From a virus: a DNA stretch of 24,635 bases. The stretch covers positions 1 to 24,635 of IMG/VR virus record IMGVR_UViG_3300025410_000085. One strand, written 5' to 3'. A program made the position numbers and the translations under genes. Shown here piece by piece: positions 2,463 to 8,465 of this stretch. Within the stretch, counting starts at the first letter, position 1, and every line of letters starts with the position of its first letter. Below the pieces are notes generated by a model. The model was given only the letters and a program-made list of their open reading frames with translations. It was not told the DNA's origin and did not search any database.

Positions 2463-2494
2463 AAAGTTATCGCTGTAAAATGGAGGCAACTAAC

Positions 2495-3109
2495 ATGACA
2501 GCAGTAGATAAGATCGATAGGTTTATTGATCGAAACGAAGATATGATCTACAGAATTGGTATTCTGTTTACATTTTCATTTTTAGGGATTGCAATTCCTG
2601 CTCATCATCTAATTGAAGCTAGAGCAGAATTAACAAAATCTCAACTGATGCATCAACAATACGTTGATGAAAAGAATATTGAAGTGCACGATCTCAATCT
2701 AAAGATTGAAGATATTTCGGCAAAGTATCAAAAAACCGAGTCCTTTAGAAAAGAAGTAAACTGTCTCGCTGAGAATGTTTATTATGAGGCAGGAACTCAG
2801 GGTAAGGACGGTATGTTAGCAGTGGCTCAGGTCACGCTAAACAGAAAGAAAGCTGGATTCGCTCCAAGTATTTGTGGAGTTGTACATCAAGGATGTCAGT
2901 TCTCATGGGTTTGCGAACCTTATAAGCAACCAATTCCTGCATTGTTTAATCGAGCTTATGATATTGCAAAGAAAAGCTTTTTAAATGGTGTAGCAATGGC
3001 TAAACTCAATAATGCTTTGTACTTTCATGGTGACTATATTAATCCTGATTGGAGCAGTAAGAAGTTTATTACTCAAATCGGGCAGCATAAATTTTATGGG
3101 GAAAAGTAA
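2495..3109 (+). CDS. SleB-type cell-wall hydrolase with N-terminal membrane anchor (endolysin)
   Basis: A C-terminal domain (about residues 88-204) matches the Hydrolase_2/SleB family, which cleaves peptidoglycan glycan strands. The candidate catalytic Glu98 lies in the ENVYYEAGTQGKDGM motif, followed by AVAQVTLNR and cysteine-containing CGVVHQGCQFSW. Residues about 17-40 form a Gly/Ala-containing hydrophobic helix, followed by a charged coiled-coil-like linker (about 45-85). This suggests a membrane-tethered or signal-arrest-release endolysin for host lysis. I place the start at ATG 2495 because GGAGG (2482-2486) lies 8 bases before it; an upstream ATG at 2480 overlaps that ribosome-binding site. 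The stop and the gp33 start overlap as TAATG. No holin or spanin is visible in this window. Confidence 0.85.
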   Translation: MTAVDKIDRFIDRNEDMIYRIGILFTFSFLGIAIPAHHLIEARAELTKSQLMHQQYVDEKNIEVHDLNLKIEDISAKYQKTESFRKEVNCLAENVYYEAGTQGKDGMLAVAQVTLNRKKAGFAPSICGVVHQGCQFSWVCEPYKQPIPALFNRAYDIAKKSFLNGVAMAKLNNALYFHGDYINPDWSSKKFITQIGQHKFYGEK

Positions 3110-3330
3110 TGGCGACTAAAGACGAAAAGAATAATTTTTCAATTGAGATAGAGAAAATTGTAAAATCTAAGAAACTATCATATCTTGAAGCCATTACAGA
3201 ATATTGCTCTGAGACTGGTTTAGAAATTGAAATGGCGGCAACACTTTTAAATGATGTGTTAAAGTCTAAAATTAAATTAGAAGCTGAAGAGCTTCGTTAT
3301 CTCCCAAAAACATCAACACTTCCTATATGA
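3109..3330 (+). CDS. 33: Late-transcription coactivator gp33-like
   Basis: In T4, gp33 bridges host RNA polymerase and the sliding clamp to activate late promoters. This 73-residue protein has the family's compact helical layout: SYLEAITEYCSETGLEIEMA (about residues 24-43), a following LLND..KSKI..EA segment, and a C-terminal LPI tail. Its length and the order 33-59-32 are those of T4-like phages. It overlaps the gp59 start by ATGA and is coupled to the hydrolase upstream by TAATG. The TATAAATA elements elsewhere in this window are its expected targets. The partner sigma factor gp55 is not in the window. Confidence 0.8.
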   Translation: MATKDEKNNFSIEIEKIVKSKKLSYLEAITEYCSETGLEIEMAATLLNDVLKSKIKLEAEELRYLPKTSTLPI

Positions 3331-3932
3331 ATGGACATGATGCTTTTCAAATTTACAATGCAGTAAGATTACATTTTACCACTGATAAATTTGATTACTT
3401 TACTTACAACGGCAAGACTAGAATAACCGCAGAATCTTTTAATGCGAGGAAAGACAAATACACTTTCCATAAAGTCGCCAGAGTAATTAAAGAAGATGAT
3501 ATGCCGTATTTCTTTGCCGTCAACTTTATGAAAGGTGATGGTAAGTCTTGGATTTCAAGCATGCTCCAAGAAGATGCCAGCAAGAACTTTAAAGAGTGGC
3601 AGCATTGGCAAGAGAATCGTTTAATTAATTTAGAAAAAGATCTAAAGAAATTAAAAGGCAAGTTCGAGAAATTAATCATTTGTAAAAATGGTCAGTTTCC
3701 CGAACTATTAAATTTTGTGTTTCAAGACGAAATAGCGTATGATAGTCTAGTAATCCTAGACCATTATATTAAACTAATGGATGCTTGGAATACGAAAATC
3801 GAGGACGACTTTATATGGACAGAATTTTACAAGAAGTTCAATAAGTATAAACCGTTCTTCCTACATTATGCACCATTGAGTGATCCTTTCTTTAAAAAAG
3901 CCATTAAAGATGGTTTGACTTTACAGAAATAA
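3327..3932 (+). CDS. 59: Replicative helicase loader gp59-like
   Basis: T4 gp59 binds forked DNA and gp32 and loads the gp41 helicase. This 201-residue protein is close to the usual 217 residues. It has the N-terminal region MNGHDAFQIYNAVRLHF, resembling the family start, and a conserved YFFAVNF segment, followed by a Lys-rich helical middle and an aromatic C-terminal half (FYKKFNKYKPFFLHYAPL). The start ATG overlaps the gp33 stop (ATGA). Position between gp33 and gp32 supports the call strongly. The promoter for gp32 begins inside its last codons. Confidence 0.8.
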   Translation: MNGHDAFQIYNAVRLHFTTDKFDYFTYNGKTRITAESFNARKDKYTFHKVARVIKEDDMPYFFAVNFMKGDGKSWISSMLQEDASKNFKEWQHWQENRLINLEKDLKKLKGKFEKLIICKNGQFPELLNFVFQDEIAYDSLVILDHYIKLMDAWNTKIEDDFIWTEFYKKFNKYKPFFLHYAPLSDPFFKKAIKDGLTLQK

Positions 3933-4903: not shown

Positions 4904-4929
4904 GGGGAGGCGAAAGTCTCCCCTTTTTT
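4904..4929 (+). terminator. Intrinsic terminator after gp32
   Basis: GGGGAGGC (4904-4911) pairs with GTCTCCCC (4916-4923), including one G-U pair, around a GAAA tetraloop, followed by TTTTTT (4924-4929). It separates the plus-strand gp32 unit from the convergent minus-strand structural arm, whose last stop codon begins at 4930. On the minus strand the stem lacks a downstream T-run. Confidence 0.92.
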
Positions 4930-7528
4930 ATGCATTCATTCCCAGAATAGCAGCGGCTGCACCTGGATTATCTTGATAACCTGCATTAATTACCTTAATC
5001 CAGAAATCATTATTATGTGCTGATGGTTCTATATTTGCTGCTTGCTGTTGACCACCTTTAGCAGCTGTTTGTTGGTTGATAACAACTGGTGCAGCTTGAG
5101 GTTGAACTTGAGCAGTTTTTGCTGCTGGTTGTGATTTGAAATACTCATCATAAACTCTAGATATATCTCTATCTGATCTTGAAGACGATGATACTTCTCT
5201 AGCAGCCATTTGTCCTTCTGTCGGTTTTGCAGAAATGTCTGTTGGACTTGACTGAGGTGAAACTGAAGTTCCTCCAGCTCTATTATAAGTATCCATCCAA
5301 CTATTTGCATATGTTTCTGGAAGCATTCCACGATTAGCGGCTAAAGCTGCAGCTGAGATATTACCTTGTATGTTACCAGTGTACCAAGCTAATGGTACAG
5401 CTTTGACATCTCCACCAGATTGTTTTAAAATATCTTGAACATATTTTTTAGCAATTTCATCTTGAACATCAGCAGGGGCATCTTTGGCTCTTAAATATTT
5501 TTCACCTACACCATATTTTTTTGTTAAAGATTGCCAAGTTGAATCTAAGAATTGATATGCACCTGAAGCACTACTTGTTGGATTGCTTGCCTTATAGTTA
5601 TTTCCAGATTCTTTCATTCTAATTGTAGAAAGAATTTTATCAACTTTTTCGTCACCAGGACCATTGCCGCTCACTCTATCCCATAAAGAAGAAAACGCAC
5701 CTTCACCAATATATGAACCTATAATTTCTCCACCAATTTCAAATGCAGGTAAAGCAGCAAGACTCAATCCGCCTGTAAATGCAGCAAGTCCTCCAGCAAT
5801 ACTAGCACCAATTGCACCGCCAATCACAGCACCAGTAGCACTACCTGTAATGCTGACTGCACTTTTCTTTAAATTTTCAGAAGTAACTTCTTTACCCTCA
5901 ATGGCATAACTTGCAGCTTCAAATAATGCACCAAATGCTGCATATCCAACAGCTTTACCCAAAGCTCCTTTTAATGCTTGACCTGCACCTTCAGAAAGGT
6001 ATCTTCTTGACAGTACACCCTTTGGTGACTTGATTTGATTTAGTAATTCTGGATCTCTAACAATACTTAATGCTTCTTGCTCAGACATATAGGTTTTAGA
6101 AACTCTGTCATAAAATCTTCCATTCTTCTCAACAATTCCAACTCTCTTTAATTGTTTAATTTGAGCTTCTTGAATATTGCCTCTTAAACCTTGTTCTTCA
6201 AAAAATCTGTTTACGTTTTGATCTTTAATTTCTTCCCCAATATTTCCATTTGCGTCAACTTTATGGAAGGAACCAGTTTCTGAATTGAAAACGATGTTGC
6301 CTTTTTGTAAAGCTTGTTTTTCAATAGCAGGTAAAGATTCATACATCTCGCTTCTAGCTTCTCTATAAATCTTATGCTGTTCAGAAGCAATTCTGCCTTG
6401 AATTGTTGCTTGAGCTCTCAATTCGCTAAGAGTAGTTTGCCCAGCACCTCTCATTCTTTGTTGTGCTGCTGCTTTAGTTGCAGCTTTTTGCGCTGCTGAA
6501 GCTGCAGCATATTTTTCAAAAGCTTGTTGTGATCTTTGCGCAGCACTCATAGTTGCTTCGCCGAAAGCTCCAGTTCCAGCTCTTCCAACCATTGCTGCAT
6601 TTTTATAAAATGCAGACTGTATTGCTGCTGCACTTGTTCCGAAAGTTGCCATTCTACCGAAGCGTCCACCTGCTCCCATTGCTCTTGCTGCTAAAGCTTC
6701 TTCTGCAGCAACGGCAGCTCTGCCGCCACCTCTACCCAATAATTTCTTTATTCCAGCACCACCAAGTGCAAGAGCACCTATGGTTTCAGCTATCTCTTCA
6801 ACTCTATTGATCAATCCACCGCCTCTACCGTGCTGTAGTAAATCTAAAATTTGGTCTAATTTACTGTCAATGTTTTTTTCAAAATCTACTAATTCGTAAT
6901 GTCTTTCCGCTTGTAGTGCTTCTATTTGTTCAATATCAAGGTTGCCTGTTCCACCTTCTTCCATTAATTTGAAATCTTTAGATTTTTTTATTTCTTGTAT
7001 TTCACTTTTTAAATTTGAGATCTCTAGCAGAACTCCAGCTTCTGGTATTCTTGCCGCATATTCTGCTTCATTGCTGGTTGCAATTTTTGGAACAGCTTCT
7101 TGAATATCATACAATTTATTTTTTGATTTAATTGATGAAGATTTAACACGATCTGAAACATTTGATATTTGTTTTAAAATTCTACCAACATCGTTTTGAG
7201 TCTTATCAGCAGTTTTTTGTACCTTTGAAATACTCTTTTCATTTTTGTTGATTGATTTTTTAACTTCTTTCAACTCACTTTCAATAGAATTAATCTTTTT
7301 AGTTTGAGCTTTAGTGTCAGCTGTTTTGTCTGATGCTGTTTTTGATTTAGTTGTTGTTTTAGTAGTAGCACTTTTACCAGCCTCACCAAAAAGCGATGTC
7401 ATGATATTCATTTTAATTGTTTGTGCAATTTCCTTAGCATCACTAGCATCTATATTTGGATCTTGTGCTCTTATGATCGCTGATAGCGCCTTAATAGAAA
7501 ATCCTGTTGGTGTTACTTTGCTTACCAT
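4928..7528 (-). CDS. Tape-measure-like tail protein with C-terminal lytic transglycosylase domain
   Basis: This is an 866-residue protein. Residues about 55-130 are a Lys/Glu/Ser-rich coiled coil. Residues about 230-390 are Ala/Gly/Gln-rich helices. About 520-610 is a Gly/Ala-zipper hydrophobic region (GAVIGGAIGASIAGGLAAF) suited to membrane insertion. About 630-750 is a soluble-lytic-transglycosylase-like domain with candidate catalytic E640 in MKESGNNYK and the SASGAYQFLDSTW motif. The tail is Gln/Ala-rich. This layout and the position after gp26 suggest the tape measure (T4 gp29 role) carrying a peptidoglycan-cleaving domain used at DNA entry. It could instead be a separate ejected virion protein, as no sequence match to T4 gp29 is evident to me. 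The start ATG overlaps the end of the -1-frame gp26 extension (ATGGTAA). Confidence 0.75.
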   Translation of the reverse strand: MVSKVTPTGFSIKALSAIIRAQDPNIDASDAKEIAQTIKMNIMTSLFGEAGKSATTKTTTKSKTASDKTADTKAQTKKINSIESELKEVKKSINKNEKSISKVQKTADKTQNDVGRILKQISNVSDRVKSSSIKSKNKLYDIQEAVPKIATSNEAEYAARIPEAGVLLEISNLKSEIQEIKKSKDFKLMEEGGTGNLDIEQIEALQAERHYELVDFEKNIDSKLDQILDLLQHGRGGGLINRVEEIAETIGALALGGAGIKKLLGRGGGRAAVAAEEALAARAMGAGGRFGRMATFGTSAAAIQSAFYKNAAMVGRAGTGAFGEATMSAAQRSQQAFEKYAAASAAQKAATKAAAQQRMRGAGQTTLSELRAQATIQGRIASEQHKIYREARSEMYESLPAIEKQALQKGNIVFNSETGSFHKVDANGNIGEEIKDQNVNRFFEEQGLRGNIQEAQIKQLKRVGIVEKNGRFYDRVSKTYMSEQEALSIVRDPELLNQIKSPKGVLSRRYLSEGAGQALKGALGKAVGYAAFGALFEAASYAIEGKEVTSENLKKSAVSITGSATGAVIGGAIGASIAGGLAAFTGGLSLAALPAFEIGGEIIGSYIGEGAFSSLWDRVSGNGPGDEKVDKILSTIRMKESGNNYKASNPTSSASGAYQFLDSTWQSLTKKYGVGEKYLRAKDAPADVQDEIAKKYVQDILKQSGGDVKAVPLAWYTGNIQGNISAAALAANRGMLPETYANSWMDTYNRAGGTSVSPQSSPTDISAKPTEGQMAAREVSSSSRSDRDISRVYDEYFKSQPAAKTAQVQPQAAPVVINQQTAAKGGQQQAANIEPSAHNNDFWIKVINAGYQDNPGAAAAILGMNA

Positions 7529-7728
7529 TTTCTTGATTTATTTTCCATTTCTTTTAGTTTAGCATTCTCATTTTCTTCTTTAATCTTAGCTGACAGCATT
7601 CCAATATAAGCATCTTTTTCCCACGGTATCATATCATCAAAAATTCTAAAATCAATTTTATGGTGATAAAGGAGCATAAAATTCAAATTGAAAAACTCCT
7701 TTAACCCCTCATTACCAAAGCTTAGATA
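7522..7728 (-). CDS. -1-frame extension of gp26 (frameshift product; gp51-like/tail-chaperone candidate)
   Basis: After the slippery T-run at the end of gp26, the -1 frame is open for 68 codons to TAA at 7524-7522. It starts YLSFGNEGLKEFFNLNF and contains IPWEKDAYIGMLSAKIKEE, a pattern recalling the short acidic-helical T domains of tail assembly chaperones. A -1 shift would give a 314-residue gp26 fusion. Independent initiation is also possible: TTG at 7686 has AAAGGAG 9 bases upstream, whereas the ATG at 7677 is 18 bases away from it. The segment fills a gap of about 190 bases that would otherwise be empty in this tightly packed operon, and it overlaps the tape-measure start. Coding status is likely; mode of expression is inferred. 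Confidence 0.72.
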   Translation of the reverse strand, partial: YLSFGNEGLKEFFNLNFMLLYHHKIDFRIFDDMIPWEKDAYIGMLSAKIKEENENAKLKEMENKSRKW

Positions 7729-8465
7729 AAAAAATCGTTGAGACCCTCCAGCACAAACTTGTGCTTAAATCCGCATTTTGGACAATCTTTATTTAACTCT
7801 TGTCTGACCGTTGGCAAGCTCTTAAAAAAGTTTGTCAATAAGTCATATTTCTCTGCAGGTAGATTCATTACAAATTCTACTAATTCTTCTACAGTTGCAT
7901 CTTTAGAGTAATACACATTTTCTTTGTCAAAAATGTAATCGATACATAATGCTATTGTTTTGAATTCATCATTCTCTTCTAGATTTTCTGCAGGATTTGA
8001 TAACTTTTGAATTATCTCAAATGTTGGATACTTCATTTGTAATCCAACATCATCATTGATCATTATCTTTGTAGAGTTCTGATCAAGATTTACTACTGGA
8101 ACACTTAAAAGATCAATAGATCCATCAATTATCATTCCGCATTCTGATTTCTGATCGCCTTCTCCAATTTCATTTTTACATTTAAAGAACACGTTTATGT
8201 TCTCACCAATTGATCTTGCTCTGAAATTTAAAAATAAAACTTCAATGTCAATGAGTGGCAATTTATCTACATCAATGTTTTCATCTAGAAGACAATTTTT
8301 AATAATTTGTTTAATCGTATTGACGACTTCATTAGCATCTGTCTGTTCAGTTGCAAGAAGCATCAGTTTTTGTTCCTTAACCAGAAATGGTCTGAACTTA
8401 ACTGGGTTTTCTTGAGAAAACAGTTTCACTTCATAAGTCGGTGTCGCGATTGTCGGGAATTTCAT
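7722..8465 (-). CDS. 26: Baseplate hub assembly protein gp26-like
   Basis: This 247-residue protein resembles the T4_baseplate/gp26 family of cyanophage and T4-like phages: the N-terminus has PTYEVKLFSQ and KFRPFLVKEQKLMLLA, and a central set of helices is followed by a C-terminal CPKCGFKHKF. Four cysteines (C96, C109, C228, C231) could form a zinc ribbon. In T4, gp26 acts in assembly of the central hub, with gp51. GAGGTAA lies 4 bases before the ATG. The protein ends two codons after a slippery heptamer, so a fraction is probably extended into the -1 frame (see separate entry). It is positioned between the gp54-like gene and the tape measure. Confidence 0.78.
   Translation of the reverse strand: MKFPTIATPTYEVKLFSQENPVKFRPFLVKEQKLMLLATEQTDANEVVNTIKQIIKNCLLDENIDVDKLPLIDIEVLFLNFRARSIGENINVFFKCKNEIGEGDQKSECGMIIDGSIDLLSVPVVNLDQNSTKIMINDDVGLQMKYPTFEIIQKLSNPAENLEENDEFKTIALCIDYIFDKENVYYSKDATVEELVEFVMNLPAEKYDLLTNFFKSLPTVRQELNKDCPKCGFKHKFVLEGLNDFFI
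7728..7749 (-). promoter_or_regulatory. Probable programmed -1 frameshift site
   Basis: Reading the minus strand, an SD-like GGAGGG (7749-7744) is followed after 9 bases by T TTT TTT (7734-7728), positioned so the zero-frame codons are GAT TTT TTT ATC TAA. The heptamer fits X XXY YYZ, and the upstream SD spacing is like that of dnaX (about 10 bases). The zero-frame stop comes two codons after the slip. No downstream hairpin was obvious by eye. Confidence 0.7.

Follow-up and report, generated by a model that had tools for sequence, protein, structure and literature searches.

Phage lambda G and GT are a -1 frameshift pair encoded upstream of the tape measure gene, and the 2016 review covering them still treats T4 as an exception to this otherwise conserved frameshift (PMC5009743). 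The tail assembly chaperone (TAC) genes of T4-like phages were identified by Vladimirov, Gautam and Davidson (2022; Virology 566:9; cited in PMC10885494 and PMC12846349). As far as that work is represented in the papers citing it, T4 gp26 and gp51 are TAC-N and TAC-NC, correspondingly, some T4-like phages do without frameshifting and possess a short gene alongside a separate, fused long one (PMC10885494), and poly-T frameshift signals occur in T4-like TAC-N genes (PMC12846349). Furthermore, in phage Adele of the Vandenendeviridae a conserved -1 shift at the poly-T site GTTTTT joins TAC-N to a C-terminal domain (PMC12846349).

Here, we describe a locus on the minus strand of a stretch of DNA from an uncultured T4-like phage that was analysed over its whole length of 24,635 nucleotides (hereafter, the window), in which a homologue of gp26 is followed by a gp51-like reading frame. 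Judging from the sequence, we are highly confident that it would encode a lambda G/GT-type tail assembly chaperone, the short TAC-N and the long TAC-NC being produced via -1 programmed frameshifting. The idea of a frameshifted TAC in a T4-like phage is already known and, because the signal is common to nearly all T4-like relatives examined, the locus is very probably a solid and well-supported but largely expected case. The added value is modest and consists of the breadth of the map, the variation between Shine-Dalgarno-like (SD-like) elements and hairpins, and the evidence for annotated gp51 genes being fragments of a fusion.

Slip site and gene neighbourhood

The gp26 homologue (247 aa; 7722..8465, minus strand) was assigned as the short tail assembly chaperone, TAC-N, from its matches to PF12322 (T4_baseplate; E = 5.6e-54, 183.6 bits against a curated cut-off of 24.5, residues 9-246) and PHROG 150 (E = 5.6e-60). 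Its relatives span 25-100% identity, and its AlphaFold2 model has a mean pLDDT of 91. It is the only gp26-like gene in its own 24.6 kb record fragment, within which no separate gene for the whole long form (N- plus C-terminal parts) was found. A tail tube gene (PHROG 45, E = 1.3e-24) is located 5' of gp26, and on its other side lies an 866-aa tape-measure-like ORF (4928..7528, minus strand), recognised by position and length; we infer from its position that it is the tape measure, which gives the gene order tail tube, chaperone, tape measure. It should also be noted that residues ~634-697 of the tape-measure-like protein match a transglycosylase/lysozyme-like domain (PF06737, E = 6.4e-6). On the plus strand, the product of 2480-3109 has a membrane-anchor-like start and resembles, by eye, SleB-type cell wall hydrolases.

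On the minus strand, the 3' end of gp26 was read directly as CTG GAG GGT CTC AAC GAT TTT TTT ATC TAA. It contains the slippery heptamer T TTT TTT (7734-7728) in X XXY YYZ register, GA[T TTT TTT] ATC TAA, with a single sense codon (ATC) between the heptamer and the zero-frame stop TAA (7724-7722). The putative stimulator, SD-like GGAGGG (7749-7744), is positioned 9 nt 5' of the heptamer. The -1 extension (7728..7522), corresponding to the C-terminal domain of gp51 or TAC, has 68 codons (7728-7525) followed by a TAA (7524-7522), which overlaps the ATG of the next ORF (7528-7526) as ATGGTAA; the predicted slip product, gp26 plus the -1 extension, is of 314 aa. The first-pass annotation had proposed this arrangement, and its GGAGGG, 9-nt spacing, heptamer register and TAA position were all correct on direct reading, as was its 68-codon open frame overlapping the tape-measure start; recomputation returned the same fusion length. 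Its statement that the extension escapes an ORF listing needs correction, as part of the extension does appear at a 50-aa cut-off, in the form of a 54-aa ORF beginning with TTG at 7686.

Altogether, the larger ORFs of the window contain 66 strict in-frame X XXY YYZ heptamers. The one at the gp26 end is alone among them in being followed by at least 24 open -1 codons, the CCCAAAA of ORF 3109-3330 aside, and only one other of the 66 shares its having an SD-like motif shortly 5' of the heptamer. Given how often -1 stops occur in the coding sequences of the window, a run of 68 open -1 codons has P ~5e-4. As to the CCCAAAA, it lies in frame, 6 codons short of the end of ORF 3109-3330 (plus strand), which is overlapped in the -1 frame by ORF 3327-3932; since the latter has its own ATG, this site is probably due to chance.

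Conservation of the -1 frame and of the slip signal

The -1 extension had been described as protein-like, and a profile match to PHROG 634 ('baseplate hub assembly catalyst', gp51; E = 1.8e-14, profile positions 56-118 of 121) now identifies it as gp51. Homology of the -1 product begins at the slip-site Phe-Phe itself and includes the conserved stretch FFxxxxxHxxLxNYYxxNFALMQHHKYSLxELENMxPWER. The extension and gp26 were each modelled separately with AlphaFold2; the extension (mean pLDDT 84) is predicted to be an all-helical domain with three helices at 2-24, 29-34 and 37-69. A fold search with the extension returned no significant match, and a PDB sequence search with both the gp26 and extension profiles gave nothing meaningful. 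Structural similarity to solved TACs (HK97 gp13, YqbN) is at most hinted at: 3KLU, 3FGX and 2OB9, which are named as TAC structures (PMC9603447), were all among the fold matches, but at non-significant values (E 3.6-5.7, TMt 0.30-0.44).

For the comparative analysis, 118 loci were gathered from viral contigs, cyanophages, pelagiphages and phages of Methylophilales, Rhizobium, Agrobacterium, Stenotrophomonas, Aeromonas, Vibrio, Klebsiella and Salmonella. Removal of near-duplicates left 104 distinct loci, and 99 after five from Ackermannviridae or similar phages (L111, L113, L114, L115 and L119; the record of L114 is without a family) were set apart. Past the slip, the -1 frame of every one of the 110 complete loci stays open, for 53-80 codons (median 64). 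Across 338 pairs, which are not independent of each other, substitutions at -1 codon positions 1/2/3 numbered 3659/1430/7399, and this third-position bias persisted (1128/718/2192) in the first 45 nt past the slip, a segment that precedes most possible -1 starts. The -1 frame evolves as coding sequence.

Conservation across relatives, suggested earlier as a check, was found in every case. The 99 distinct non-Ackermannviridae relatives derive from viral metagenomes, cyanophages, pelagiphages and phages of Rhizobium, Stenotrophomonas, Aeromonas and Vibrio; each carries T TTT TTN in frame a short way 5' of where gp26 stops, followed by gp51 in the -1 frame, and none of them lacks the heptamer while keeping a separate, well-started gene. 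The taxa with T TTT TTN comprise Kyanoviridae, Pootjesviridae, Menderavirus and Straboviridae outside the T4 subgroup (PX29, Schizotequatrovirus PG216). The heptamer is TTTTTTC in 68 loci, TTTTTTT in 27, TTTTTTA in three and TTTTTTG in one; exactly one codon separates it from the stop in 87 of the 99, and the codon before the slip-site Phe-Phe ends in T in every one. At other Phe-Phe pairs of gp26, T TTT TTN was seen in only 8/122. Amino acids and codon usage predict 0.47 heptamers per locus, from which 99/99 has P ~10^-33, a value uncorrected for phylogeny and therefore an overstatement, with many loci being only 25-40% identical to the protein from the window. Within the window's clade (four loci), codons 240-247 are identical at 8/8 conserved codons versus 35/85 elsewhere. 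The anatomy of the locus, the homology of its parts and the selective conservation of slip signal and -1 frame are established.

Stimulatory elements were more variable. In the -1 frameshift of E. coli dnaX, a stimulatory internal SD-like element is located ~10 nt 5' of a homopolymeric heptamer. Among our loci, the Glu of the LEG motif is encoded by GAG in 52 of the 73 loci with Glu, versus 21% in gp26 bodies (p = 6e-20, loci taken as independent), and the Leu codon before that Glu ends in G in 38/53 versus 28% (p = 4e-11, under the same assumption). These two preferences together spell (U/C)UGGAGGG, and this codon bias therefore suggests selection for an SD-like element upstream of the heptamer, at a dnaX-like distance. 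No strong 3' hairpin was found in the window, the score being 10.5 where that of S-PM2 is 28. Strong hairpins 5-9 nt past the heptamer (threshold 16) were present in 8/99 loci versus 11/592 controls, the best ones being in S-PM2 (L001; 13 bp, 9 nt past the heptamer) and P-SSM2 (L121; 11 bp, 5 nt past); from their sequences, both look like classical frameshift stimulators without a counterpart in the window's clade. Over all loci, downstream folding energy was only mildly lower than in controls (mean z -1.20 versus -0.55).

The Ackermannviridae and similar loci that were set apart also have a conserved -1 ORF after gp26, reaching 54-67 codons past the stop position and in most cases bearing an MxPWHL-type motif. 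They possess NTT TTC or GTT TTT instead of the full heptamer, and the slip mechanism in these five loci may be weaker or different.

Proposed mechanism and competing explanations

We infer from the conserved sequence features that slippage occurs, that the SD-like element plays a role in it and that the products act as chaperones. The zero-frame product of gp26 would be the short chaperone TAC-N. At U UUU UUU, a minority of ribosomes would shift back by one base, with the two Phe-tRNAs re-pairing on UUU UUU, and pairing of the SD-like GGAGGG with 16S rRNA would aid the slip. The slipped ribosomes would bypass UAA and add the 68-residue helical gp51 domain, resulting in the 314-residue TAC-NC. 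If these proteins behave like lambda gpG/gpGT, numerous copies of the short chaperone and a few of the long one would then coat the tape measure protein and bring in the subunit of the tail tube.

One could propose instead that gp51 is made independently of the slip, from a small gene whose own start codon is used by ribosomes re-initiating past the gp26 stop. The candidate start in the window is TTG at 7686-7684 (minus strand), which has AAGGAG 8 nt upstream, both here and in the nearest copies, and is the sole good reason to consider a separate gene; in the records of S-PM2, P-SSM2 and HTVC008M, too, gp51 is given a CDS and a start of its own. This TTG is, however, unconserved: in L007-L015, which are 60-64% identical, there is no start codon at its position, and the first -1 start occurs 80-92 nt past the gp26 stop, well inside the domain (L011 has an ATG 52 nt before the stop). 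Starts at +38, +50 or +92 would remove the most conserved part, FFxxxxxHxxLxNYY, and in 53/113 loci the -1 frame is devoid of ATG, GTG and TTG all the way from its preceding stop to 16 codons beyond the slip. Across the family, therefore, own starts cannot produce the full conserved domain, and they leave the slippery heptamer of all 99 relatives unexplained. We consider an own-start gp51 unlikely and rejected it, as its start is unconserved among relatives. It should be mentioned that the annotated gp51 CDSs of cyanophage, pelagiphage and methylophage loci (L001, L002, L109, L116 and L121) begin after the gp26 stop, at unconserved starts, and omit the conserved FFRxxL segment. From these sequences, gp51 should probably be annotated in those phages as a joined CDS. 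The predicted slippage also suggests that, in the marine and freshwater T4-like phages of this group, most annotated gp51 genes are pieces of the fusion with a misplaced start.

The seven-T run of the window could also give rise to the -1 product by transcriptional slippage. Six T is a short run for that process, yet most relatives have only six (TTTTTTC in the 68 loci counted above) and the heptamer never departs from its codon register; we rejected this explanation on account of the six-T sites and regard it as very improbable. Least credible of all, to the point of being negligible, is that a chance T run met a chance open frame, or that the site is an assembly error without function. T runs are common in such an AT-rich genome (35% GC), but the same site is present in the independent metagenome contigs L003-L006 (98-100% identity) and in the 99 distinct relatives, and the -1 frame has its PHROG 634 match, so this reading is already refuted by conservation. 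Programmed -1 frameshifting is the explanation we retain.

Comparison with T4 gp51 and with recoding systems

The first-pass annotation contrasted the locus with T4, where gp26 and gp51 are separate genes. This is so, but gp51 of T4 is not a mere tail piece: in its 249 aa it has a complete PF12322 domain (residues 1-201), i.e. a gp26-like part, and then the same C-terminal domain, and the fusion profile aligns with it by hhalign across both parts (E 4.4e-8), whereas T4 gp26 aligns to the first part of the fusion only. As T4 gp51 is the same two-part protein in frame, the 314-residue slip product would be its equivalent. At the slip position T4 gene 26 reads TTC TTT, and gene 25 occupies its -1 frame. 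T4 obtains short and long forms from two genes, whereas both would come from one gene by predicted slippage in the phage from the window. A gp26/gp51 fused by recoding in a T4-like phage is supported as had been suggested, though not as something special to this phage; judging from the 99 relatives, the slip arrangement is general in this branch of T4-like phages.

We find it reasonably probable that frameshifting is ancestral in the T4 superfamily, with T4 gp51 derived by duplication and in-frame fusion, and that stimulators are exchangeable between lineages, an SD-like element serving in the window's clade and a 3' hairpin in S-PM2 and P-SSM2. The heptamers of PX29 and PG216 would favour frameshifting as the older state. 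Such slippage would account for the long gp51-type chaperone in a large group of marine and freshwater T4-like phages and make the separate gp51 of T4 intelligible as the same protein without recoding.

Compared with lambda G/GT, the locus shares a short protein with a predicted rare -1 extension, a putative slip just before the zero-frame stop and a position directly 5' of the tape measure; it differs in the SD-like element upstream, and no sequence similarity between the two is shown. The lambda slip heptamer also differs from T TTT TTT. The likeness to dnaX concerns the SD-like element upstream of a homopolymeric heptamer; dnaX is an unrelated gene that has A AAA AAG and a 3' hairpin, whereas the window has T TTT TTT without a strong hairpin. 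The Vandenendeviridae TAC locus belongs to another phage family, and its likeness to the present locus lies in the poly-T -1 arrangement. The cyanophages and pelagiphages S-PM2, P-SSM2 and HTVC008M (Kyanoviridae) have the same gene order, T TTT TTN and gp51 in the -1 frame, and differ in that gp26 and gp51 are annotated as two separate genes and, in S-PM2 and P-SSM2, in the strong 3' hairpins.
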